50,274 nt of DNA from Moorena sp. SS36440bin_2 (lineage in GTDB: Bacteria > Cyanobacteriota > Cyanobacteriia > Cyanobacteriales > Coleofasciculaceae): NCBI GenBank assembly GCA_011524395.1, contig WTKN01000015.1:1-50274 (forward strand). The letters are read 5' to 3'. A model generated the notes under the pieces. That model was not told the origin of the DNA, searched no databases, and worked only from the letters and a program-made list of their open reading frames with translations. The position numbers and the translations under genes were made by a program. Of the stretch, positions 9,516-21,862 are shown piece after piece (the first letter of the stretch is position 1; each line of letters opens with the position of its first letter).

Positions 9516-9790
9516 ACTCTAAAATCTCTAAATCAATTCTGTTGTTAGATTGGCTTTTGCGAATACCTGAACTACAATGCTTCCCGTTTGCGGTAATGCG
9601 CCGATCTGTAGAGTTTTGTACGGCAAGGAAGCCCCTCTATACTCTTTTAGCGCAATTGGATGCATTTAAGCAAGCCCGATTTGGGTAAATGTACGGGAAT
9701 CCCTACATAAACGTTCACACTGGACACGTAGTCAGGTTATGATAGTAGCTAGAGCCCAAGCAAGTTAGAGGCAATTACAGCAGTTTTTCC

Positions 9791-11728
9791 ATGACCCAAC
9801 CAGCACACCTTGCCCCCTACGGTTCCTGGAAATCCCCTATTAGCGCTGACATGATTGTTCAAGGCAGCGTTAGGTTGGGCACCATTGCCCTTGATAAAAA
9901 TGATGTTTACTGGATAGAAGGGCGACCTGCAGAAGGTGGACGCAATGTGATCGTGCGACGCACCCCTGATGGCAAAAGTGTCGATCTGACTCCCGAGCCC
10001 TTCAATGCTCGGACTCGGGTTAACGAGTATGGTGGTGGTGCAATTGCAGTTAAGGATGGCACAATTTACTTCTCTAATTTTGCTGACCAACGTCTGTACC
10101 AACAAACCCCAAACTCCAAACCCCAACCCGTAACCCCTATAGGTAACTGGCGCTATGGTGATGGGGTAATTGACCAGGAGCGAGGACGTATAATCTGTGT
10201 GGGAGAAAACCACACGGTGGAGGGGGAACCAGTCAATACCTTGGTTAGCATCAGCCTAGAAAACGGTGAAGATATTCAAGTGCTAGCCTCTGGCTGTGAC
10301 TTTTACTCCTCGCCGCGCCTAAGTCCCGATTGCTCTAAAGTGGCGTGGCTAAGCTGGAATCATCCCAATATGCCCTGGGATGGTACTCAACTATGGGTAG
10401 CTCCAATATTAACCGATGGTTCTCTAGGTGTTGCAGAGCCCATTGCTGGTGGGGTAGATGAGTCGGTATTTCAGCCAGAGTGGTCACCAGATGGTGTCCT
10501 TTACTTTGTATGCGATCGCACTAATTGGTGGAATCTCTACCGCTGGCAACCAACCCAAGGGGAAATAGAACCCCTGTGTGAAATGGAAGCCGAGTTTGGA
10601 CTACCCCAGTGGGTCTTTGGAATGTCTACTTATGGCTTTGATGGTGCCAATCGAATCATATGTACCTATACTCAGGCAGGAAACTGGCATTTAGCTAGTA
10701 TTGACCTAAAAACGAAGCAGCGGTCCGACATTGCTACACCATACAGCAGTATTTATGACCTCAAGGTAACTGATAATCAAGCGGTTTTTATCGCTGGTTC
10801 CGTAACAGAAGCAAGCGCTATTGTTCAGTTGGACTTGACAAATGGACAAATCAATGTATTGAGGAAGTCGAGTGAGTTAGCTATCGATACTGGCTATCTA
10901 TCGCGTCCTCAAGCGATCGCATTTCCCACCACTAATGGACTGACCGCCTATGGTTTCTTCTACCCACCACAAAACAAAGACTACACTGCACCAACCTCCG
11001 AAAAACCACCCCTAATTGTCAAAAGCCACGGTGGACCTACGGCGGCCACTTCTAGTGCCTTTAACCTAAAAATCCAATACTGGACCTCTCGTGGTTTTGC
11101 CATGTTAGATGTAAACTATGGAGGGAGTACTGGCTATGGGCGGGATTATCGTCAGCGCCTTCAAAACAACTGGGGGATTGTAGATGTTGATGACTGCACC
11201 AATGGCGCTCAATACCTAGCTGAGCAAGGACTAGTTGATAGTGAGCGACTGGCGATTGCTGGGGGGAGTGCTGGGGGTTATACAACTCTAGCTGCTCTGA
11301 CATTCCGAAATGTGTTTAAAGCTGGCGCTAGCTACTACGGTATCAGTGATTTGGAGGTACTAGCGAAGGATACCCACAAATTTGAGTCCCGGTATCTAGA
11401 TAGCTTGATCGGTCCTTATCCAGAACGTAAAGATTTATATCAACAGCGATCGCCTATTCATTTCACAGACCAACTGTCGTGTCCTGTAATTTTCTTCCAG
11501 GGGCTAGAAGACAAGGTAGTTCCTCCTAGTCAAGCAGAAATGATGGTGGGAGCTTTGAAGGCTAAGGGGTTACCTGTAGCCTATGTCACTTATGAAGGCG
11601 AGCAACACGGTTTTCGTAAAGCAGAAACGATTAAACGGACTCTCGAAGGGGAGTTGTATTTTTACTCCCGGGTATTTGGATTTGAGCTCCCAGAGGCGAT
11701 AGAACCTCTAACTATTTATAATTATTAG
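9791..11728 (+). CDS. S9-family prolyl oligopeptidase-like peptidase
   Basis: A 645-residue serine peptidase of the S9 (dipeptidyl aminopeptidase/acylaminoacyl peptidase) type. The first 380 or so residues form a WD/TolB-like beta-propeller with recurring SPDG-like blades; the rest is an alpha/beta hydrolase. The catalytic triad is readable: Ser493 in GGSAGGY, Asp574 in EDKVVP, His606 in GEQHGF. No signal peptide, so cytosolic hydrolysis of oligopeptides is expected. The start ATG at 9791 lacks a clear ribosome site, but no better start exists nearby. Length is typical for the family. Confidence 0.9.
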   Translation: MTQPAHLAPYGSWKSPISADMIVQGSVRLGTIALDKNDVYWIEGRPAEGGRNVIVRRTPDGKSVDLTPEPFNARTRVNEYGGGAIAVKDGTIYFSNFADQRLYQQTPNSKPQPVTPIGNWRYGDGVIDQERGRIICVGENHTVEGEPVNTLVSISLENGEDIQVLASGCDFYSSPRLSPDCSKVAWLSWNHPNMPWDGTQLWVAPILTDGSLGVAEPIAGGVDESVFQPEWSPDGVLYFVCDRTNWWNLYRWQPTQGEIEPLCEMEAEFGLPQWVFGMSTYGFDGANRIICTYTQAGNWHLASIDLKTKQRSDIATPYSSIYDLKVTDNQAVFIAGSVTEASAIVQLDLTNGQINVLRKSSELAIDTGYLSRPQAIAFPTTNGLTAYGFFYPPQNKDYTAPTSEKPPLIVKSHGGPTAATSSAFNLKIQYWTSRGFAMLDVNYGGSTGYGRDYRQRLQNNWGIVDVDDCTNGAQYLAEQGLVDSERLAIAGGSAGGYTTLAALTFRNVFKAGASYYGISDLEVLAKDTHKFESRYLDSLIGPYPERKDLYQQRSPIHFTDQLSCPVIFFQGLEDKVVPPSQAEMMVGALKAKGLPVAYVTYEGEQHGFRKAETIKRTLEGELYFYSRVFGFELPEAIEPLTIYNY

Positions 11729-13335: not shown

Positions 13336-14016
13336 ATGGATGGAATCAATAAAGCAGAAATGCGGGAAAGACTGGGAAATCTTGAGAAAATACGTGATAT
13401 AATAATAGGCTCTAAGCTGCGAGAGTATGATAATCGCTTCACGAAGATAGAGTCTGACTTATCCATATGGCAGCAGGAAATACGCGATCGCGTTGAGCAG
13501 ATCAAAACGACTCTGTCGAAAGAAATCGCTGCTGCTGTAGATTCCCTGGAAAAAAAACTAAGTAATCTTAGTTTAACTGCAGCCGAAGAAAGGAATGAGA
13601 TTCAGGAGCGGGTTGAGCTGCTCAACAAAAAGTTTTCTAAGAGTATTGAGGTGCTGGACGAGACAGTATACAAGCAGTCCACCTCCCTAAAGAAGGAACT
13701 TTCAGAAACTAAAGAACAGCATCAGCAAGATGTCATGAATCTCAGAAAGCAGATATTGGCAGAGCTGGAAACTAAATTTGCACAACTCAAAGATGCCAAA
13801 GCCTCGAAAGCAGATCTCGGAGACATGTTGTTAGAGTTGGGTTTGAGGCTAAAAGGGACTGAATTGGTTCCAGCACTCAAAGAAGCTAGTGATCGCTGGT
13901 CTGGATTACCACAGACCAAAGGTCATAATGGTACGGTTACTGAGAAAACTGCTACTAATAATAATCATGATGACGAGCATCTCCAGTTAATCAAGCAAAC
14001 TCAGAGTTTGGAATAG
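13336..14016 (+). CDS. Coiled-coil protein of unknown function
   Basis: A 226-residue charged protein that is almost wholly predicted alpha-helical coiled coil (for example KIESDLSIWQQEIRDRVEQI and KLSNLSLTAAEERNEI) from about residue 15 to 155. It ends in a short conserved-looking GLRLKGTELVPALKEA segment and a polar tail. No signal or membrane segment. The ATG at 13336 is preferred; a TTG-led extension of ten hydrophobic residues upstream looks spurious. The OmpA-domain gene follows 148 bases downstream in the same direction and the Ras-like GTPase after that, so it may be a cytosolic adaptor of that module. I do not recognise the family. Confidence 0.75.
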   Translation: MDGINKAEMRERLGNLEKIRDIIIGSKLREYDNRFTKIESDLSIWQQEIRDRVEQIKTTLSKEIAAAVDSLEKKLSNLSLTAAEERNEIQERVELLNKKFSKSIEVLDETVYKQSTSLKKELSETKEQHQQDVMNLRKQILAELETKFAQLKDAKASKADLGDMLLELGLRLKGTELVPALKEASDRWSGLPQTKGHNGTVTEKTATNNNHDDEHLQLIKQTQSLE

Positions 14017-14164
14017 ACTTGGCACAGTCATGCAATGCCAGCGACAAAAATTCACTTGATTTTCTGGCTAAAATTAGTTTTAAATCAAAGTGCGTTCGCG
14101 TAGCGGCTCTTTGTCGAGCATCGCTGATTTTTGCAAAAGGTTAAATAGTAACGGATAGCCACCA
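14017..14164. repeat. GCGTTCGCGTAGCG-type repeat copy
   Basis: The spacer between the coiled-coil and OmpA genes carries a partial copy (GCGTTCGCGTAGCGGC at about 14093-14108) of the palindromic repeat also found at 22859 and inside nagA. Confidence 0.7.
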
Positions 14165-16597
14165 GTGGCATTTTCAAACCAAAATCCGGCTGATCAGCAT
14201 CAGCCGGAAAATTCTATTTCAGACTCAATTGAGGTCAATTCAAGCACAGAAGACGAGTTGAAGGATTTGCTGAATTTACTCACTGACCTCAAAATTATTG
14301 ATCAGACAGATCAACCTAGCCAACACCCTAACTCTCAGCAGCAAGGGATGACCTCTGATCAAGCAGACACTATTGAGCAATCCCATTCATCCGGTGACCT
14401 TGAGGTTCTTTCTCTTGAACCTCAAACTGACCGTGGCAGTAGCAACCGACCGTATAGGGTTCAGGAGAAAGAACCATTAGCTCAGAATCAAGGAGCTGAT
14501 GCCATAGAAACAGATCAACCCCAATCGTTGGGTGTGAAAGTCTTTCGAGATCATAACCGATCACCACAGCTTCCCTTACCAAAGGAGCATCTGCCGCCAA
14601 TGCCTCAAAATCCGGAAGAGCCATTATTAGCTGAGAATTTAGTCCAATCCGAAGCCACAGAAAGCAAGCAAGACCTGCCATCAAAGTCTGATCCCGACAC
14701 CTCCCAGGAATTAGACACCTTGGCTGAGATTTTGCAAGAACTGGTGATATCTCCAGAAATGGCACAGTTTCGTGACCAGATACAAAGCCTAGCCCAGAGA
14801 CAAGGTAAGCTTGAGCATCGGATTGATCAACCTCAAGAATTGATTAATCTATTGCTACCAGTGATGGCTAAGTTGCTGGATCTCACGGTAGCTCAGTTCA
14901 GTACCTCGGTGACCGATTCCCTGACTCCCATCATTGATGAAGTAATTGACCATAGAACTCAACAGGATAAAGTGTGTGTGGGAGAAGCGATCGCTCCGGC
15001 AGTTCCAGTAGCTATTGCCTCTCGCATCATGGAGTGCCCAGAGGAAGTTGGGAAAGCGATCGCACCAGAAATGGCAGCAGCGATCCGGGAACAGATTAGA
15101 ATTGAGCGAGACGCCATGGTAAATGCTCTGTATCCGGTCATTGGCAGTACCATTTCCACATACTTAGCAGAAGAAATCCGAGCTATCAATGATAAGGTGG
15201 AAAATGCCCTCAGCATTGAAGGAATGATGCGCAAGATTCGCGCTAAGGTCCAGGGGGTTTCTGAAGCGGAATTGCTGCTTCGGGAGGTGATGCTGTTTCG
15301 GGCGCGAGCTATCTTTTTGATTCATAAAGACTCTGGTTTAGTGATTGCTGAGGTACAACCCTCTGACAAGCAGCATCTAGAGTCAGATATGCTAGCAGGG
15401 ATGCTCACCGCTATCCGTAGCTTTGTCAATGACTGCATCGCTCAGTCTGGGGATGTGGCAGAAATCGATGCTATTGACTATGGTACATCCAAGATCATCC
15501 TGGAAGTAGAGGGATATTGCTATCTGGCGGTGGTAGTTGAAGGGGAACCCACCCAACAATTCATTCATGAGTTGCGGGAAAGCCTAGGAACTATTGTTAC
15601 CCATTATGGTAAACCGATCAGGTCTTTTGATGGGGATACTACAAATATCCCGGTGGGAGTCAAGGGAATTTTACAAAATTTATTAGATCAATCCGTTAGT
15701 CAAGGGCGTCGTGATACTCAGGAAAATCGGAAAAAAGGCAAGAAACCGCCAGGCTTATTGGTGCTTGGCTTAGGGCTTCTGGGTTTAATCGCTGTATTTG
15801 GGGGAATTTATCAGCATAGGGCTAAAATAAACCGTCGCATTGAGCAAAAAACTCAACTTGCCCTCGCCTATTATGCCCCAGAAGTGGCTGATTATGGTTT
15901 AACAGTTAAAGCCAATCGCCAGATACTAAAGCTAGGTGGACAGCTACCGAATCAGGTTCTGCGCTCAAACGTCGAGCAAATTGCTAAAGCTGCCGCTCCT
16001 AACTTAGGGTTGGATAATCAAATTGAGGTGATCGAACTCCCCTATACTGATGAATTAACCCAATCTCAACTCCAAAGGGTGAGCAACACCTTGAATCAAA
16101 TGGATGGGGTAATAATTTTAGCATACTATACAGAAGGCAAGGTCACAGTAAACGGAGCGGTACTCTATGCTAAGGATGTCCCTAAGATTATCCAAGCCTT
16201 TGAGAACATTCCCGGTGTCAAGTCGGTCGAGAACAATTTACAACTCCAAGGATTAGACCTTACCAGCCGGATCTACTTTGATCTTGGTTCAGCCCAGTTG
16301 AAACCAGAGGATATAGGCACTAAAATCCGATCAATTAAGGAATATCTGGAACGGTATCCTCAAAAGCACCTGAGGATAATCGGCTACGCTGATCCTAGGG
16401 GTCAAGCTACCGAAAATCAGGGATTGGCACAACAACGAGCCCAAATGGTAAAAGATGTGCTTGTTGAGCAAGGCATTGATTCCAATCGGCTGCAAGTTCG
16501 TGGGGTTGGCAAACGACCGCCAGATGTTGATGCTAGTCAACCGCTGTGGTTAAATCGATGTGTCCTATTTGATCGGTTTACCGAGAAACCCAATTGA
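14165..16597 (+). CDS. Inner-membrane protein with longin/roadblock-like cytosolic domain and periplasmic OmpA domain
   Basis: An 810-residue protein. Residues 1-200 are low-complexity and acidic; about 215-370 are helical. Residues about 375-490 (ARAIFLIHKDSGLVIAEV, then LAGMLTAIRSFVND) resemble a longin/roadblock-type fold. A membrane helix lies at about 528-550 (GLLVLGLGLLGLIAVFGGIY). The periplasmic part has a BON-like segment at 636-697 and an OmpA/MotB peptidoglycan-binding domain at about 700-805 (YFDLGSAQLKPE, GYADPRG, GLAQQRAQMV). Start is GTG at 14165. The next gene is a Ras-like GTPase; roadblock proteins are known partners of MglA-like GTPases, so this may link GTPase state to the cell wall. 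The OmpA call is strong; the longin/roadblock call is fold-level inference. Confidence 0.75.
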   Translation: MAFSNQNPADQHQPENSISDSIEVNSSTEDELKDLLNLLTDLKIIDQTDQPSQHPNSQQQGMTSDQADTIEQSHSSGDLEVLSLEPQTDRGSSNRPYRVQEKEPLAQNQGADAIETDQPQSLGVKVFRDHNRSPQLPLPKEHLPPMPQNPEEPLLAENLVQSEATESKQDLPSKSDPDTSQELDTLAEILQELVISPEMAQFRDQIQSLAQRQGKLEHRIDQPQELINLLLPVMAKLLDLTVAQFSTSVTDSLTPIIDEVIDHRTQQDKVCVGEAIAPAVPVAIASRIMECPEEVGKAIAPEMAAAIREQIRIERDAMVNALYPVIGSTISTYLAEEIRAINDKVENALSIEGMMRKIRAKVQGVSEAELLLREVMLFRARAIFLIHKDSGLVIAEVQPSDKQHLESDMLAGMLTAIRSFVNDCIAQSGDVAEIDAIDYGTSKIILEVEGYCYLAVVVEGEPTQQFIHELRESLGTIVTHYGKPIRSFDGDTTNIPVGVKGILQNLLDQSVSQGRRDTQENRKKGKKPPGLLVLGLGLLGLIAVFGGIYQHRAKINRRIEQKTQLALAYYAPEVADYGLTVKANRQILKLGGQLPNQVLRSNVEQIAKAAAPNLGLDNQIEVIELPYTDELTQSQLQRVSNTLNQMDGVIILAYYTEGKVTVNGAVLYAKDVPKIIQAFENIPGVKSVENNLQLQGLDLTSRIYFDLGSAQLKPEDIGTKIRSIKEYLERYPQKHLRIIGYADPRGQATENQGLAQQRAQMVKDVLVEQGIDSNRLQVRGVGKRPPDVDASQPLWLNRCVLFDRFTEKPN

Positions 16598-16872
16598 AAG
16601 CGCCTTTGCTTTAGCCACCAGATAACAAGAAGAGATTGACTTTAGTCCCTTGTCTATTAAATCTGGAATCAGGAGGTGATCGAACTACTGCAATAGATCA
16701 CTAACACTAAAACCATACTGCTGTCTGGGAAAATACGGTGGGTGAGCAATAGGTATTCAAGTCCGCTGAAGAAATCATACCGTAAACCTGTTCAGATGTG
16801 GAGCCATGCCCATCTCTTAACAACTGTTTACAATCCCCGAGAGTTCAAACCAGTTGTCAGCAAGCAGTAACA
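16598..16872. other. Spacer between OmpA-domain and GTPase genes
   Basis: A 275-base spacer without repeats of the dispersed families. AGGAGGTG occurs at 16671 but no gene follows it closely. An in-frame GTG at 16798 could extend the GTPase by 25 residues, but that extension lacks similarity to small GTPases. Confidence 0.5.
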
Positions 16873-17412
16873 ATGTCCACTATTGATCGAAAAATTTGCC
16901 TAGTTGGAGACTTTGGTGTGGGCAAAACTAGCCTAATCCGCCGATTTGTGGAGGGTGTGTTTAGCGACCAATATCTTTCAACAGTCGGAGTTAAAATTTC
17001 CCGCAAAATCCTAAAATTTAAGGATGAAACCCGATCAGAACTGCTGGATATAAAATTGATGATTTGGGATTTAGAAGGTCATACTAAATTTAAGGGAATT
17101 TCACCAACTTATTTAAAAGGAGCTCACGGTGCAATTATTGTTGCTGATGTAACTCGTCTGGAAACCATTGAGCACATTATTCATCACATCGATCTGTTTT
17201 TATCCATCAATCCCAAAGGGGTGATTATTACTGCCTTAAATAAATCAGACTTAGTTGATCAAGAAAAACTGGAGCAATTGACACACATGTTACAGAAAAA
17301 AATTGCCGAGGAAGAACAAGTGATAGCGAGTTATTATACCTCAGCGAAAACTGGGTTATACGTCGATGACATATTTCAGCAATTAGGTTGCGGAACACTT
17401 CAACAGGAATAA
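16873..17412 (+). CDS. Ras/Rab-like small GTPase
   Basis: A 179-residue single-domain small GTPase. G1 is GDFGVGKTSL (K18), G2 is the Thr in STVGVK, G3 is WDLEGH, G4 is NKSD and G5 is TSAKTG, in Ras order and spacing. The residue matching Ras Gln61 is His and the preceding Ala is Glu (DLEGH, not DTAGQ), so hydrolysis may depend on a partner. There is no C-terminal prenylation motif, as usual in bacteria. The ATG at 16873 starts just before beta strand 1. It lies downstream of the OmpA/longin-like membrane protein and upstream of a receptor-like kinase. A role in polarity, motility or envelope signalling is inference. Confidence 0.88.
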   Translation: MSTIDRKICLVGDFGVGKTSLIRRFVEGVFSDQYLSTVGVKISRKILKFKDETRSELLDIKLMIWDLEGHTKFKGISPTYLKGAHGAIIVADVTRLETIEHIIHHIDLFLSINPKGVIITALNKSDLVDQEKLEQLTHMLQKKIAEEEQVIASYYTSAKTGLYVDDIFQQLGCGTLQQE

Positions 17413-17718: not shown

Positions 17719-19758
17719 ATGACGCCCCTCTATTGTAGTAAAGGACATGAGAATCCCAATGACAATAAGTTTTGCCGGGTTTGTGGCGAGATGCTGCCGT
17801 CCTTAGCCAAAACCTTTGAAACTGGGAAGATTCTGGGTGGTCGCTACCGCATCGTCCGGGAGTTGGGACACGGAGGCTTTGGACGCACCTATTTAGCTCA
17901 AGACCTGAACCGCTTTAATGAACCTTGTGTGCTAAAAGAATTTGCCCCCCAAGTTCAAGGTAACCACGCCTTACAAAAAGCCGAAGAATTATTTGAGCGG
18001 GAAGCGGGAGTTCTTTATAGACTGCAACACCCTCAAATCCCTCAATTTCGTGAGTTGTTTCAGGTACAACAACAGGAAAAAGGCACCCTATTGTTGGTTC
18101 AGGACTATGTCGAGGGGCAAACCTACCGCGCTCTACTGGAGGCTCGCCGACCTCAGGGACTCCGGTTTAGTGAAGCAGAAGTGACTCAACTGCTGATCCA
18201 AATCCTGCCAGTGTTGGAATATATCCATTTCATGAGGGTGATTCATCGGGATATCTCTCCGGATAATCTGATTTTGCGCAGTACCGATGGTTTACCAGTG
18301 CTGATTGACTTTGGTGGTGTCAAGGAGGTAGCAGCAAATGTGGCATCGAAGTTCCTAGGGTCAAAGGTGGCTGGTCAAAATAAGCCGATCATCACTCGCT
18401 TGGGTAAAGTTGGCTATGCTCCCCCAGAGCAGATGCAAGGAGGAAGTGTTTTTCCCCACAGTGACCTCTATGCTCTAGGGGCAACAATATTAGTATTAGT
18501 GACTGGTCAGGAACCCCAGCAGATAATTGACCCCAATACCCTGACCTGGAAATGGCAACGAGAGATCAGCCTTAGCTCTACCCTAGGTCGTATCCTGGAT
18601 AAAATGCTTCAACCGAGACCAGGAGAACGGTACCAAAATGCCAAAGAAGTGCTGCGAGACCTCACCACTCACCTTCAATTTGCCAGTGACCCGCAATCAG
18701 CTCCATCACCCCCTCAGACTAAACCGACTTTAGCAGTTGCCCCTGGTTCAAAGCCAGTAGCGGTTAACCAGCCAGCAAGCCCAGCTACCGGAAGACCATT
18801 AACCGGTGCTAGCAATAATACCCTTTTAGACTGGCTTGGCAAGGTAGTTTTGGTATCTGTCTTAGCTGCTGCTGTATTTGGCTTTACCTTCTGGGCAACC
18901 AATTGGTGGTTTACATTCAGAAAACCTCAGTCGGAACGCTCACCAAAGGAATCACCCATCGGTCAACCGGACATCAAGCCACCCGACTGGTTTACCAAGA
19001 ACGAGGAAAACCGCAAGAAATTGCTAGATCAGCGTCGTGCCAATTTGGAGATTAACGAAAAGTTCTACATTGACTTAGTCAATGAGGCGTTTTGGGACAA
19101 GTACCCAAATCAACAAAAACGACAGCTAGGCAATGGATCACAGGATGCTCCCTTAAGAGAAGAGTGGGATAAGCTGGCATTTGAGTTATTGACCCGGATT
19201 GAGTTGCTAAATTTGAGTCGGACGGCACGGGGAAGGTTGGGAAGCTATGGGACAGCAGATTTAACTCGCTGGAAGCAGCAAGTGAATCAGGTGCGCCTTT
19301 CTAGCCGTGCAGCTTATGATATTGCAGATTCTAAATTCTTTCATAAGTTTCCCGATCAGCGGGGTCAGGAGTTTATCAATAAGTCGATTGGTCAGGTGTG
19401 GCAAGGGATTGTTGGGGATACGATCAAAGCGTTGACATCGGGAAAATCCCTACAGCGCATTCAGTTTGCTGCTGGCGGAGTTCAACAAGTCAATGGAACT
19501 CTCGAGCCAGGAGACGGACAAGCGTTTACTGCTGAACTTTCTCGTGGTCAAGTCATGGAAGTCAGACTGGCTACCGATGTAAATGCGTTGTTTTCAGTTT
19601 ATGCTCCGAGCCGTCAGACGACCCCCCTATTAGAAGACTCAACCGAACGGGAGTGGAGCGGGGAGCTCCCAGCATCTGGCTTCTATGAATTTGTGGTAGT
19701 TTCTCAAGCTTCTAAACCGATTAATTATCGACTTAACTTTAAGGTTGAAGATCAGTGA
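17719..19758 (+). CDS. Receptor-like Hanks-type Ser/Thr kinase with zinc ribbon and ectodomain
   Basis: A 679-residue membrane kinase. An N-terminal zinc ribbon (Cys 6, Cys 19, Cys 22, with a nearby His) precedes the kinase domain at about 43-310: GHGGFGRTYLA, VLKEF, HRDISPDN (D178) and DFG (D197). The usual catalytic-loop lysine is Ser180. A Pro-rich linker leads to one membrane helix at about 372-397. The extracytoplasmic part holds a helical domain (from about 430, EKFYIDLVNEAFWDKYP) and a C-terminal PPC-like beta domain (about 580-678). It should sense something outside the membrane and phosphorylate cytosolic proteins. The next gene is a convergent paralogue whose ectodomain matches only the first helical part. 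Confidence 0.88.
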   Translation: MTPLYCSKGHENPNDNKFCRVCGEMLPSLAKTFETGKILGGRYRIVRELGHGGFGRTYLAQDLNRFNEPCVLKEFAPQVQGNHALQKAEELFEREAGVLYRLQHPQIPQFRELFQVQQQEKGTLLLVQDYVEGQTYRALLEARRPQGLRFSEAEVTQLLIQILPVLEYIHFMRVIHRDISPDNLILRSTDGLPVLIDFGGVKEVAANVASKFLGSKVAGQNKPIITRLGKVGYAPPEQMQGGSVFPHSDLYALGATILVLVTGQEPQQIIDPNTLTWKWQREISLSSTLGRILDKMLQPRPGERYQNAKEVLRDLTTHLQFASDPQSAPSPPQTKPTLAVAPGSKPVAVNQPASPATGRPLTGASNNTLLDWLGKVVLVSVLAAAVFGFTFWATNWWFTFRKPQSERSPKESPIGQPDIKPPDWFTKNEENRKKLLDQRRANLEINEKFYIDLVNEAFWDKYPNQQKRQLGNGSQDAPLREEWDKLAFELLTRIELLNLSRTARGRLGSYGTADLTRWKQQVNQVRLSSRAAYDIADSKFFHKFPDQRGQEFINKSIGQVWQGIVGDTIKALTSGKSLQRIQFAAGGVQQVNGTLEPGDGQAFTAELSRGQVMEVRLATDVNALFSVYAPSRQTTPLLEDSTEREWSGELPASGFYEFVVVSQASKPINYRLNFKVEDQ

Positions 19759-19787: not shown

Positions 19788-21239
19788 CTAATTACTCAAA
19801 TAAGCCTCCTGTTCCAAATTATCCAGTAACTCTTCAGCAATTTGATACCAAGCTTGCCGGAATTGAACATCCTGTTCTTGATCCGAAAGAGTCTTTCCTT
19901 TTAATTGGGGATATGTACTATAAAAAAATTGATCAACTTTCTGATAAAAAGTCCCTGGATCAATTTTCAAATCTAGGCAACGCTGATAGATTTGCTTTTG
20001 CCGTTGCTGCTCGGTGTTACTCACAGATGCTTTAGAAGGCAATGATGGTATAGAGGGCAAAGACCAGGATATCTTGGGTAATTTTGGTGTAGGAAATCCC
20101 CCTCTGGCTACTGCTACCGTTCCAAACACTACTAATAAAGCAATGGACATAGAAAGACCAAAAAACTTTAGTTCACGGTTAGTGGATTGCTGTTTGCGAT
20201 TCAGCACAGCAGTGAAGGTTGTTTTAATGGTTTGACCAGGCGCAGCAACTAAAGTAGCGATCTGGGTAAATAGCGTATTTAGTTGTTTATTTGGTTGTTT
20301 AGTTGGTAGATTATTTGGTTGTTTAGTTGGTAGATTATTTGGTTGTTTAGTTGGTAGATTATTTGGTAGCTTAGTTGGCTGCTGGCTACTTACCGGCTGG
20401 GGAATTACGGTTAAGAGCGCTTCACTGACGTCTTGGGCTGACTGATACCTTTGTTTAGGAAGATTAGCCAGCATTTTAGTCAACACCGATTTGAAGCTGG
20501 GGCTAATAGTTATCTCTTGCCAAAGCCAGGTAGCATGATAACTATCATAAAGGTCTAGAGGCTGTTTACCGGTTACCAATACTAAAGCAGTTACCGCTAA
20601 AGCGTAAAGGTCGCTAGTGCCATCAGCTTTGCCATATCGTAACTGTTCATCTGGGGAGTAACCCCGTTTGCCCACTTGAGTGCCAATCACCTGTCCAGTT
20701 GATTGGATAATAGCAGTGGTTACCATTTCTTTGACACAACCAAAGTCAATTAATACTGGCTTGCTGTCAGAATTCCGTTTAATCAGATTATCGGGAGAAA
20801 TATCCCGATGAATGATCTGCTTAGAGTGGATATAATCTAAAACTGGCAAGATGTCTTGGAGCAGTTTAATCACATCTGCTTCCCTAAAGTTTTGACCTTG
20901 GACTAAAAGCTGGTGATAGCTGAACCCTTCGACATAGTCTTGTACTAAAAATAGATAATTTTTACGACCGATACTGGTTCTAAGTAACTCTCTAAAACAA
21001 GGAATTTGGTTATGTCTGAGCTGGTATAACATGCCAGCTTCTCTCTCAAATAATTCTTGAGCTTTTTGTAATTCATGTTTGTTTTGAAGTTGGGGAGCAA
21101 ATTCTTTAAGTACACAACGCTCTTGATAGCGATTAGCATCTTCAGCAAGATAAGTCCTTCCAAAAGTTCCTTGACCTAAGTCGCCTAAGATTTTATAGCG
21201 GTCTTTGATAATTGCTCCAGGTTTTAAGGTATTAGACAT
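19788..21239 (-). CDS. Receptor-like Hanks-type Ser/Thr kinase (convergent paralogue)
   Basis: A 483-residue membrane kinase. The kinase domain starts near residue 15 (GQGTFGRTYLA, VLKEF), has HRDISPDN (D146) and DFG, and again has Ser where the catalytic-loop lysine is expected. A linker made of three to four 8-residue repeats (NNLPTKQP) leads to a membrane helix at about 358-378 and a short ectodomain (IDPGTFYQKVDQFFYSTYP) homologous to the first ectodomain segment of the neighbouring kinase. It lacks the zinc ribbon and the PPC-like domain. I use the ATG at 21237-21239; a TTG four codons upstream is possible. It ends 29 bases from the convergent kinase gene. Confidence 0.87.
   Translation of the reverse strand: MSNTLKPGAIIKDRYKILGDLGQGTFGRTYLAEDANRYQERCVLKEFAPQLQNKHELQKAQELFEREAGMLYQLRHNQIPCFRELLRTSIGRKNYLFLVQDYVEGFSYHQLLVQGQNFREADVIKLLQDILPVLDYIHSKQIIHRDISPDNLIKRNSDSKPVLIDFGCVKEMVTTAIIQSTGQVIGTQVGKRGYSPDEQLRYGKADGTSDLYALAVTALVLVTGKQPLDLYDSYHATWLWQEITISPSFKSVLTKMLANLPKQRYQSAQDVSEALLTVIPQPVSSQQPTKLPNNLPTKQPNNLPTKQPNNLPTKQPNKQLNTLFTQIATLVAAPGQTIKTTFTAVLNRKQQSTNRELKFFGLSMSIALLVVFGTVAVARGGFPTPKLPKISWSLPSIPSLPSKASVSNTEQQRQKQIYQRCLDLKIDPGTFYQKVDQFFYSTYPQLKGKTLSDQEQDVQFRQAWYQIAEELLDNLEQEAYLSN
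20287..20378. repeat. 24-bp in-frame tandem repeat in the kinase linker
   Basis: Three perfect 24-base units at 20287, 20311 and 20335 and a degenerate fourth. They encode NNLPTKQP repeats between the kinase domain and the membrane helix, so copy-number change would lengthen the linker without a frameshift. Confidence 0.92.
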
Positions 21240-21862
21240 AATAGCCGCCAATTGATGATTTATAGTTTAGGGAAGAGGGACTTCGGAGCAGGGAATCGGG
21301 AATCGGGAATCGGGAATCGGGAGCAGTAAGAAAGAAATACGAGGATTTTTTGCAGAAGTGTTTAATCCAGTAATAACAATTTACCTTGTCAACTTATCGT
21401 TTTTGTCAAGCTATCCAGAGGTGCGACTAGTGGCGAATTTAATTACGGGTCAAACGCACCATTACGGTCTTGGAGGTTTCCATCATGAGCGACTACATCA
21501 AGACACAGAGCAGAAAGTACGAGAAAAATGATAAACAATGTATTTAAATAAAATGTATTTAAAAATTCCAACTTAATCGAAAATCACTTCTTCCCTGTTC
21601 CCTGTTCCCGGGAGCAGGTCAAATTTTCTGAAACATTAGTACTATTTTCCAGTAGAGCAAGCTTAAACCCATGAGGGGGCTATAGATAATTTACAAATAT
21701 TCATCCAGGACTAGCTCCCCTGATGCCCTATTACCTATTACCTATTACCCATTACCCATTACCCATTACCTATTACCTATTACCTATTACCTTAGTACAA
21801 ATGTTCTGCATAAGTGACATGCTCCCCCTGTTCCCAGATCCGCTGTTCCCTGCTCCCTATTC
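21240..21862. other. Gene-free gap with several repeat families
   Basis: Contents in order: a GGGAATC heptamer array at about 21292-21320; a 39-base degraded copy (21466-21504) of the palindromic repeat at 36784-36822; a TTCCCTG pair near 21592-21608; a CTATTAC/CCATTAC heptamer array at about 21728-21791; and a TGTTCCC patch next to the mdh stop. No gene or T-tailed terminator seen. Confidence 0.75.
21728..21791. repeat. CTATTAC/CCATTAC heptamer array
   Basis: About nine tandem heptamers alternate between CTATTAC and CCATTAC downstream of mdh. They are a different heptamer from the GGGAATC arrays but have the same unit length. Confidence 0.88.

Follow-up and report, generated by a model that had tools for sequence, protein, structure and literature searches.

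RESULTS

Genes and domains of the locus

The sequence analyzed here (the window) is a 50,274-nucleotide stretch of the Moorena sp. SS36440bin_2 genome (contig WTKN01000015.1). At positions 13336 to 17412 it carries a co-directional trio of open reading frames (ORFs), all on the plus strand, that encode a coiled-coil protein, a membrane protein with an OmpA domain, and a Ras-like GTPase. The first gene (13336..14016, likely start ATG 13336) encodes a cytoplasmic coiled-coil protein of 226 amino acids (aa) with the N-terminal motif KIRDIIIGSKLREYDNRFTKIE. Its Pfam matches are to generic coiled-coil families only, and these are weak and fall under the curated cutoffs; a hydrophobic segment was sought along the sequence and none was found.

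The second gene (14165..16597) encodes an 810-aa membrane protein composed of an N-terminal variable region, a helical region, a predicted longin domain, one transmembrane helix, a BON domain, and an OmpA domain. The helical region (residues 318 to 376; 15116..15292) is conserved, mostly helical, and modeled with a pLDDT of 26 to 68 in blocks of ten residues. It precedes the longin-type domain (residues 377 to 505; 15293..15679), for which the predicted fold consists of two strands, a helix, three strands, and C-terminal helices. The single predicted transmembrane helix lies at residues 530 to 548 (15752..15808), where the Kyte-Doolittle mean reaches 2.43 across 19 residues; nothing elsewhere in the protein exceeds 1.6. 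Pfam places a BON domain at residues 656 to 695 (16130..16249; E 1e-7) and an OmpA-like domain at residues 704 to 793 (16274..16543; E 1e-16, better than the curated cutoff). Asp743 and Arg758, which we take to be the peptidoglycan-binding pair of the OmpA domain, occur in 77 and 106 of 106 homologues, respectively. Judging from family membership, the OmpA/BON end would be periplasmic and would hold peptidoglycan. A read-through single-chain model of a relative (L075) reproduces the domain anatomy, apparently with two BON-like repeats; its pTM is 0.38 and it carries no interface information.

The third gene (16873..17412) encodes a Ras/Rab-like small GTPase of the Group 1 Rup type (179 aa; Pfam Ras, E 7e-26). 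Its ORF extends back to GTG 16798. Because Met predominates at the position of ATG 16873 in an alignment of 36 sequences, we place the start there, and the first 25 codons of the ORF are probably not translated. With this start, 275 bp separate the stop codon of the membrane protein gene from the GTPase gene. The preliminary description of this DNA had named a co-directional trio and made the OmpA and GTPase calls, all of which hold. The 7.75-Mb assembly from which the window comes contains one match each for the membrane protein, the GTPase, and the longin-domain profile.

A pair of Ser/Thr kinase genes that face each other (17719-19758, with a zinc-ribbon-like start, and 19788-21251) adjoins the operon in a position that is not conserved. 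The kinase gene at 17719-19758 was considered as part of the module and rejected: of the 87 loci listed, the window and L072 are the only two where it lies behind the GTPase gene. At the Moorena loci L032 and L073, a gene unrelated to the kinase sits behind the GTPase gene, in the place that the output gene described below usually takes; its product, starting MRVFVLDKNKKPLDPC, looks to us like an IscB-type RNA-guided nuclease.

Conservation and linkage of the three genes

The survey comprised 121 loci: 40 from the genome set, the best 80 of 258 relatives (from one scan), and the window. A membrane protein ORF of >600 aa was present at 120 of these, and 106 loci, including the window, were left after removal of those identical over the last 400 aa. 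ORF calling was mechanical, taking the earliest possible start and thinning overlapping ORFs by length, with the result that some start positions and gaps are off. The three genes occur in the exact order coil, membrane protein, GTPase on one strand at 81 of the 106 nonredundant loci, and the remaining 25 include 6 at which a neighbor is missing at the sequence end. The gap between the membrane protein and GTPase genes has a median of 29 bp (89 loci, 10 of them overlapping, with the stop codon counted in the gap). At four more distant loci of the same type (L195 to L198), the order coil, membrane protein, GTPase was found in all four. The conservation of this three-gene arrangement is far beyond chance.

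Co-occurrence across genomes follows the same pattern. At E up to 1e-15, the membrane protein is encoded in 40 of 57 genomes, with the window's own counted. Searches by varying methods and thresholds located the GTPase in 39 of those 40 genomes, compared with 1 of the 17 others. The lone genome with the membrane protein and without the GTPase is 61 percent complete. In 16 of the 17 genomes without the membrane protein, the GTPase is absent as well at E up to 1e-15; the remaining one is 67 percent complete and carries a divergent copy (E 9.5e-28). All eight genomes in which the GTPase gene was not directly adjacent, or in which the contig ended, do have the GTPase. The Fisher exact test gives p 4.9e-12, a value that ignores relatedness among genomes that are nonindependent by shared ancestry. 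The linkage suggested earlier for the three genes is thus borne out by neighborhood and by co-occurrence. Of 292 genomes drawn from across the phylum, 34 contain the domain, and the system is far from universal.

A predicted longin fold in the membrane protein

The domain ahead of the transmembrane helix had been proposed to be longin/roadblock-like, with structure prediction and a fold search of residues 375 to 490 as the check. A Pfam search of the membrane protein gave no match across this region. Residues 318 to 505, aligned with 57 relatives, were modeled with AlphaFold2 (mean pLDDT, 70.1; pTM, 0.62). In the numbering of this model, strands at 62-70 and 76-80 are followed by a helix at 90-110, strands at 118-122, 125-132, and 135-142, and C-terminal helices at 147-163, 165-169, and 180-187. 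A short helix (50-58) lies ahead of the first strand, with a pLDDT of about 60. By tens of residues, pLDDT is mostly 77 to 92 for the strands and last helices, 53 to 70 for the central helix and flanks, and 26 to 68 for the first 60 residues.

A Foldseek search with the model gave 29 matches in the PDB with E values no higher than 0.001, with adaptor sigma subunits at the top; among the matches listed, Sec22b, Ykt6, and Ragulator are present, and Mon1-Ccz1 appears at 0.001. With a second structural aligner, the longins among the matches listed include Sec22b (Z 13.9; 2.6 A over 121 residues), VAMP7 (12.9), and Ykt6 (12.5), together with TRAPP subunits (up to 12.1) and Fuzzy (11.5). Roadblock-type matches among those listed score lower: Rag-like and EGO-complex proteins reach Z 10.3, a Streptomyces roadblock (3kye) 10.0, and MglB (3t12) 9.7. 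Assignment of each match to the longins or the roadblocks was made partly from what we take to be its family. Among the matches listed, longin alignments run to model residue 188, Rag-like ones to 178-180, and roadblock ones to 165-170, and those of the free roadblocks begin at chain residue 25 or later. The two families carry their extra helix at opposite ends of the fold, and a longin is described as a five-strand core with a central helix and two C-terminal helices, without an N-terminal packing helix (PMC10933270). The predicted model has the five-strand core, the central helix, and the C-terminal helices of that description. Because the longins have the higher Z scores and their alignments take in the last helix, whereas roadblocks end sooner, residues 377 to 505 are a longin by predicted fold.

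Sequence comparison was less informative. Fuz_longin_1 matches were weak (E 0.015 in 1 of 29 members and 0.095 in 1 of 31), and unrelated Pfam families matched more members. One domain profile (A7), compared with PDB sequences at E up to 10, had the TRAPP longin BET5 as its sole match, at chance level (E 1), and another (A1) gave zero matches to PDB sequences. Robl_LC7 is absent from the Pfam matches listed for the window protein and the domain relatives, and profile comparison with canonical roadblocks gave a probability of 2.1 percent at best. As a control, the longin profile was compared by hhalign with the sensor family of the output gene described below, and no match resulted. The earlier proposal therefore stands as to a fold of the longin/roadblock type, but its roadblock half is not favored, given longin Z scores of up to 13.9 against at most 10.3 together with the profile and Pfam results.

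The genome of the window separately encodes two canonical Robl_LC7 proteins, at L157 (G000:C175) and L158 (G000:C193). The Rup GTPase profile had no match at these two loci or at 28 other roadblock loci of relatives (1.8 to 3.3 kb each).

The GTPase

The best PDB sequence matches of the GTPase are Rab14 and Rab1. Its motifs are ordinary (G1 GDFGVGKTS, G4 NKSD, and G5 SAK), and its length of 179 aa (204 at most) is inside the 150 to 240 aa expected of Group 1 Rup. The position of the G3 glutamine, directly after DxxG, is occupied by His (residue 95 of the 204-aa ORF); glutamine occurs there in 13 of 106 sequences from loci of the window's type (type 1) and in 0 of 8 from the type 2 and rhizobial operons described below. 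The G3 Asp is kept in the window, in 105 of the 106, and in all 8, so the GTPase does not have the MglA-like replacement.

A fourth gene encoding an output enzyme

The GTPase gene lies within six genes of the membrane protein gene at 96 of the 106 loci. At 87 of these 96, a downstream gene on the same strand encodes a protein with a conserved N-terminal sensor-like domain, within 150 bp at 74 of them. Pfam was run on 55 such proteins of <900 aa, which came only from the loci of the best 80 of 258 relatives (one 98-aa copy of 56 was omitted): PAS_9 was matched in all 55, HisKA and HATPase in 41 each, a receiver domain in 23, a nucleotide cyclase in 8, and GGDEF in 3. The sensor-like domain is followed by a glutamine in the pattern LxQxxNE, which fits 102 of 136 stretches of a redundant set; 8 have another residue and 26 are off pattern. 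By eye, L055, L058, and L064 have a gene starting like the sensor domain directly behind the membrane protein gene.

Nine loci with the GTPase are without the output gene: five are from Moorena (the window, L032, L033, L072, and L073), and the others are L042, L046, L067, and L069. The sequences of L033 and L042 stop at the GTPase gene, so they are locally uninformative on this point. A search for the output gene in the genus of the window, Moorena, recovered it in 0 of 4 genomes, and all 4 match only the second, generic PAS stretch. The fourth gene was invisible in the preliminary description because the genus lacks the output enzyme.

Related operons in rhizobia and a second cyanobacterial type

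The same cassette is present on Mesorhizobium and Rhizobium plasmids, where it consists of genes for a coiled-coil protein, a 1,021-aa OmpA protein, a GTPase of 163 or 164 aa, and a 356-aa protein annotated as an adenylate/guanylate cyclase in one of the two plasmids. Profiles matched these cassettes at E 7e-31 and 8e-30 for the domain and at 8e-39 and 9e-37 for the GTPase; the sensor profile reached only 1e-3. The coil HMM matched the rhizobial coil genes at an E value of about 1e-20.

A second cyanobacterial type (L189 to L194) has membrane proteins of 589 to 604 aa that resemble the rhizobial form. The GTPase gene is adjacent at all six loci and the coil gene at five, the sixth stopping at a contig end. 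An N-terminal motif like KIRDIIIGSKLREYDNRFTKIE is also found in the type 2 and rhizobial coil proteins. At four of the six loci, a stand-alone sensor-like protein of 127 to 135 aa is encoded within 4 bp of the GTPase gene or overlapping it, and this small protein may be homologous to the type 1 sensor. A kinase-like gene follows it, or follows directly, at four of the six loci (by eye).

DISCUSSION

We conclude that the operon in the window matches the Group 1 Rup neighborhood published by Wuichet and Søgaard-Andersen in 2014 and is not new. That neighborhood comprises a coiled-coil protein, a protein in which an uncharacterized domain (Unc) is followed by a transmembrane segment and OmpA, a GTPase, and an output module (PMC4316618). 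The same source describes Group 1 Rup GTPases as lacking the G3 glutamine, names members from Cyanobacteria and one from Mesorhizobium loti, and reports that 0 of 71 Rup genes are coupled to MglB; as of 2014, by its account, no Rup GTPase had been characterized experimentally. The window shares the coil, the Unc-transmembrane-OmpA protein, and the GTPase without G3 glutamine. It differs in that the Unc domain of 2014 here models as a longin and, by search, in that the genus is without the output module. PMC4316618 calls the output gene a highly conserved neighbor and does not treat it as defining the GTPase family; for that reason we read its absence as loss, and the window as a Group 1 Rup member that has lost its fourth gene. 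The system proposed earlier thus survives as a conserved linked module, but one already published, which normally includes a fourth gene. The longin identity of the Unc domain, by predicted fold, is new as far as we have searched; in the openly licensed literature we recognized neither a later study of Rup systems nor any description of them as containing a longin.

The explanation we prefer is a Group 1 Rup signaling operon in which a peptidoglycan-anchored longin regulates or docks the Rup GTPase, and we regard it as about evenly balanced between right and wrong. The OmpA/BON end would hold peptidoglycan, and the single transmembrane helix would connect it to the cytoplasmic helical stretch and the longin. 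By analogy with MglB acting on MglA, or with longin guanine nucleotide exchange factors (GEFs) acting on Rabs, the longin could serve as a regulator of Rup or as its docking platform, so that the state of the envelope would set the nucleotide state or location of the GTPase. Gene order suggests that GTP-bound Rup might then switch the N-terminal sensor domain of the neighboring enzyme, be it a histidine kinase, a nucleotide cyclase, or a diguanylate cyclase, with the coiled-coil protein as a putative scaffold. Since Moorena is without the output enzyme, output there would pass through another protein or through the coil/membrane complex itself. The conjectural steps of this scheme are the binding of peptidoglycan, the topology, the contact between longin and GTPase, the direction of the signal, and output switching. 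In its favor are the conserved gene order with short or overlapping gaps, the co-occurrence of GTPase and membrane protein, the rhizobial cassettes, the predicted longin fold, the domain content of the output enzymes, and the published neighborhood; against it weigh the covariation result given below, the low pTM of the read-through model, the weak profile and sequence comparisons, the long membrane protein paralogues that have no coil or GTPase gene beside them, and the lack of the output gene in Moorena. The general claim, that in Group 1 Rup operons a Rab-like GTPase is encoded alongside the longin that regulates it, and that this longin is covalently tethered to peptidoglycan, is put forward a little short of an even chance.

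The signal may instead run from the inside out, with the longin as a passive docking site or effector, as in the SRP receptor alpha subunit or the adaptins, and with GTP-bound Rup recruiting or releasing the membrane protein and so altering envelope anchoring. Many of the closest folds among the matches listed (Sec22b, VAMP7, and adaptor sigma subunits) are longins that are not known as exchange factors, which favors this reading, as does the retention of the three genes in Moorena although no output enzyme was found there. However, the presence of the output enzyme behind the GTPase at 87 of 96 loci suggests that cytoplasmic signaling is the usual purpose, and we consider an inside-out role rather unlikely. 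If the domain were a roadblock of the canonical MglB kind fused to OmpA, the operon would be an MglA/MglB system. The roadblock-type domains among the fold neighbors (MglB itself at Z 9.7) agree with this, but Robl_LC7 is absent from the listed Pfam matches, and the longins are the better match in score and in coverage of the last helix; such an identity is very improbable.

It is also conceivable that the longin makes no contact with the GTPase and dimerizes or binds an internal segment, as SNAREs do, while the GTPase-activating protein or effector is the output sensor domain or the coil. This would accord with the idea, raised in PMC4316618, that the output sensor domain supplies the glutamine in trans: the G3 glutamine is scarce in these GTPases, and the LxQxxNE glutamine is frequent after the sensor domain. 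Covariation does not favor the longin either. Mutual information was computed for 77 paired loci (Neff 41); the others of the 86 loci that have both coil and GTPase are without a sensor gene close downstream. Per 1,000 column pairs with the GTPase, those above z 4.5 numbered 2.02 for the longin, 2.01 for the OmpA control, 1.52 for the coil, and 0.92 for the sensor. The longin-GTPase signal over these 77 loci is thus no higher than that of the periplasmic control, which also holds the highest single z. Against this, Moorena retains the longin protein and the GTPase, and the sensor gene was not found there by search. We judge an arrangement without longin-GTPase contact to be unlikely.

The operon resembles several known systems in part. 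Like the MglA/MglB polarity module, it has a small GTPase whose neighbor carries a domain of the roadblock/longin type; MglB, however, is a free cytosolic roadblock, whereas the longin-like domain here is joined across the membrane to OmpA, and MglA lacks the G3 Asp (PMC4316618), whereas this GTPase is Rab/Ras-like. With the actinobacterial conservon (CvnA-D) it shares a set of four genes that include a kinase, a fold of the GTPase-regulator type, and a small GTPase, an analogy also drawn for Rup systems in PMC4316618. Conservons differ in having MglB homologues and Group 2 MglA GTPases (PMC4316618), without a described OmpA anchor. In common with the eukaryotic longin GEFs (TRAPP, Mon1-Ccz1, and Fuzzy-Inturned), it pairs a predicted longin fold with a Rab-like GTPase, and TRAPP and Fuzzy rank among the best fold matches listed for the domain. 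Those GEFs are eukaryotic multisubunit complexes; exchange is only a candidate activity here.

If the proposal is right, bacteria have their own version of the eukaryotic Rab-longin partnership, and have it in the GTPase group considered nearest to Rab/Ras/Rho. The regulator that the MglB-uncoupled Rup GTPases have so far lacked would thereby be identified, at the least as an obvious and testable candidate. If the neighbor is indeed a longin, the pairing of longin and Rab-like GTPase may predate, or be independent of, Asgard archaea and eukaryotes. PMC3521125 derives eukaryotic longins from prokaryotic roadblocks, and a longin encoded next to a Rab-like GTPase in bacteria would bear on that origin. 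Moreover, a cell wall-anchored GTPase regulator would be an unusual envelope sensor.

The survey also turned up variants of the locus. Membrane protein paralogues of about 1,200 aa occur without an adjoining coil or GTPase gene at L051 (6012-9617), L052 (7920-11528), and L148 (7769-11446), downstream of genes that we presume to be PdxA-like; the full operon is found as well in genomes (G020 and G051) or an assembly (Tychonema, L129) carrying such paralogues. Arthrospira sp. PCC 9108 (L139, 9482-11470) and G048 (L071, 7518-10203) each have the membrane protein gene broken into two ORFs. At L037, a tandem pair of GTPase genes (9786-11296) lies behind a single membrane protein gene.
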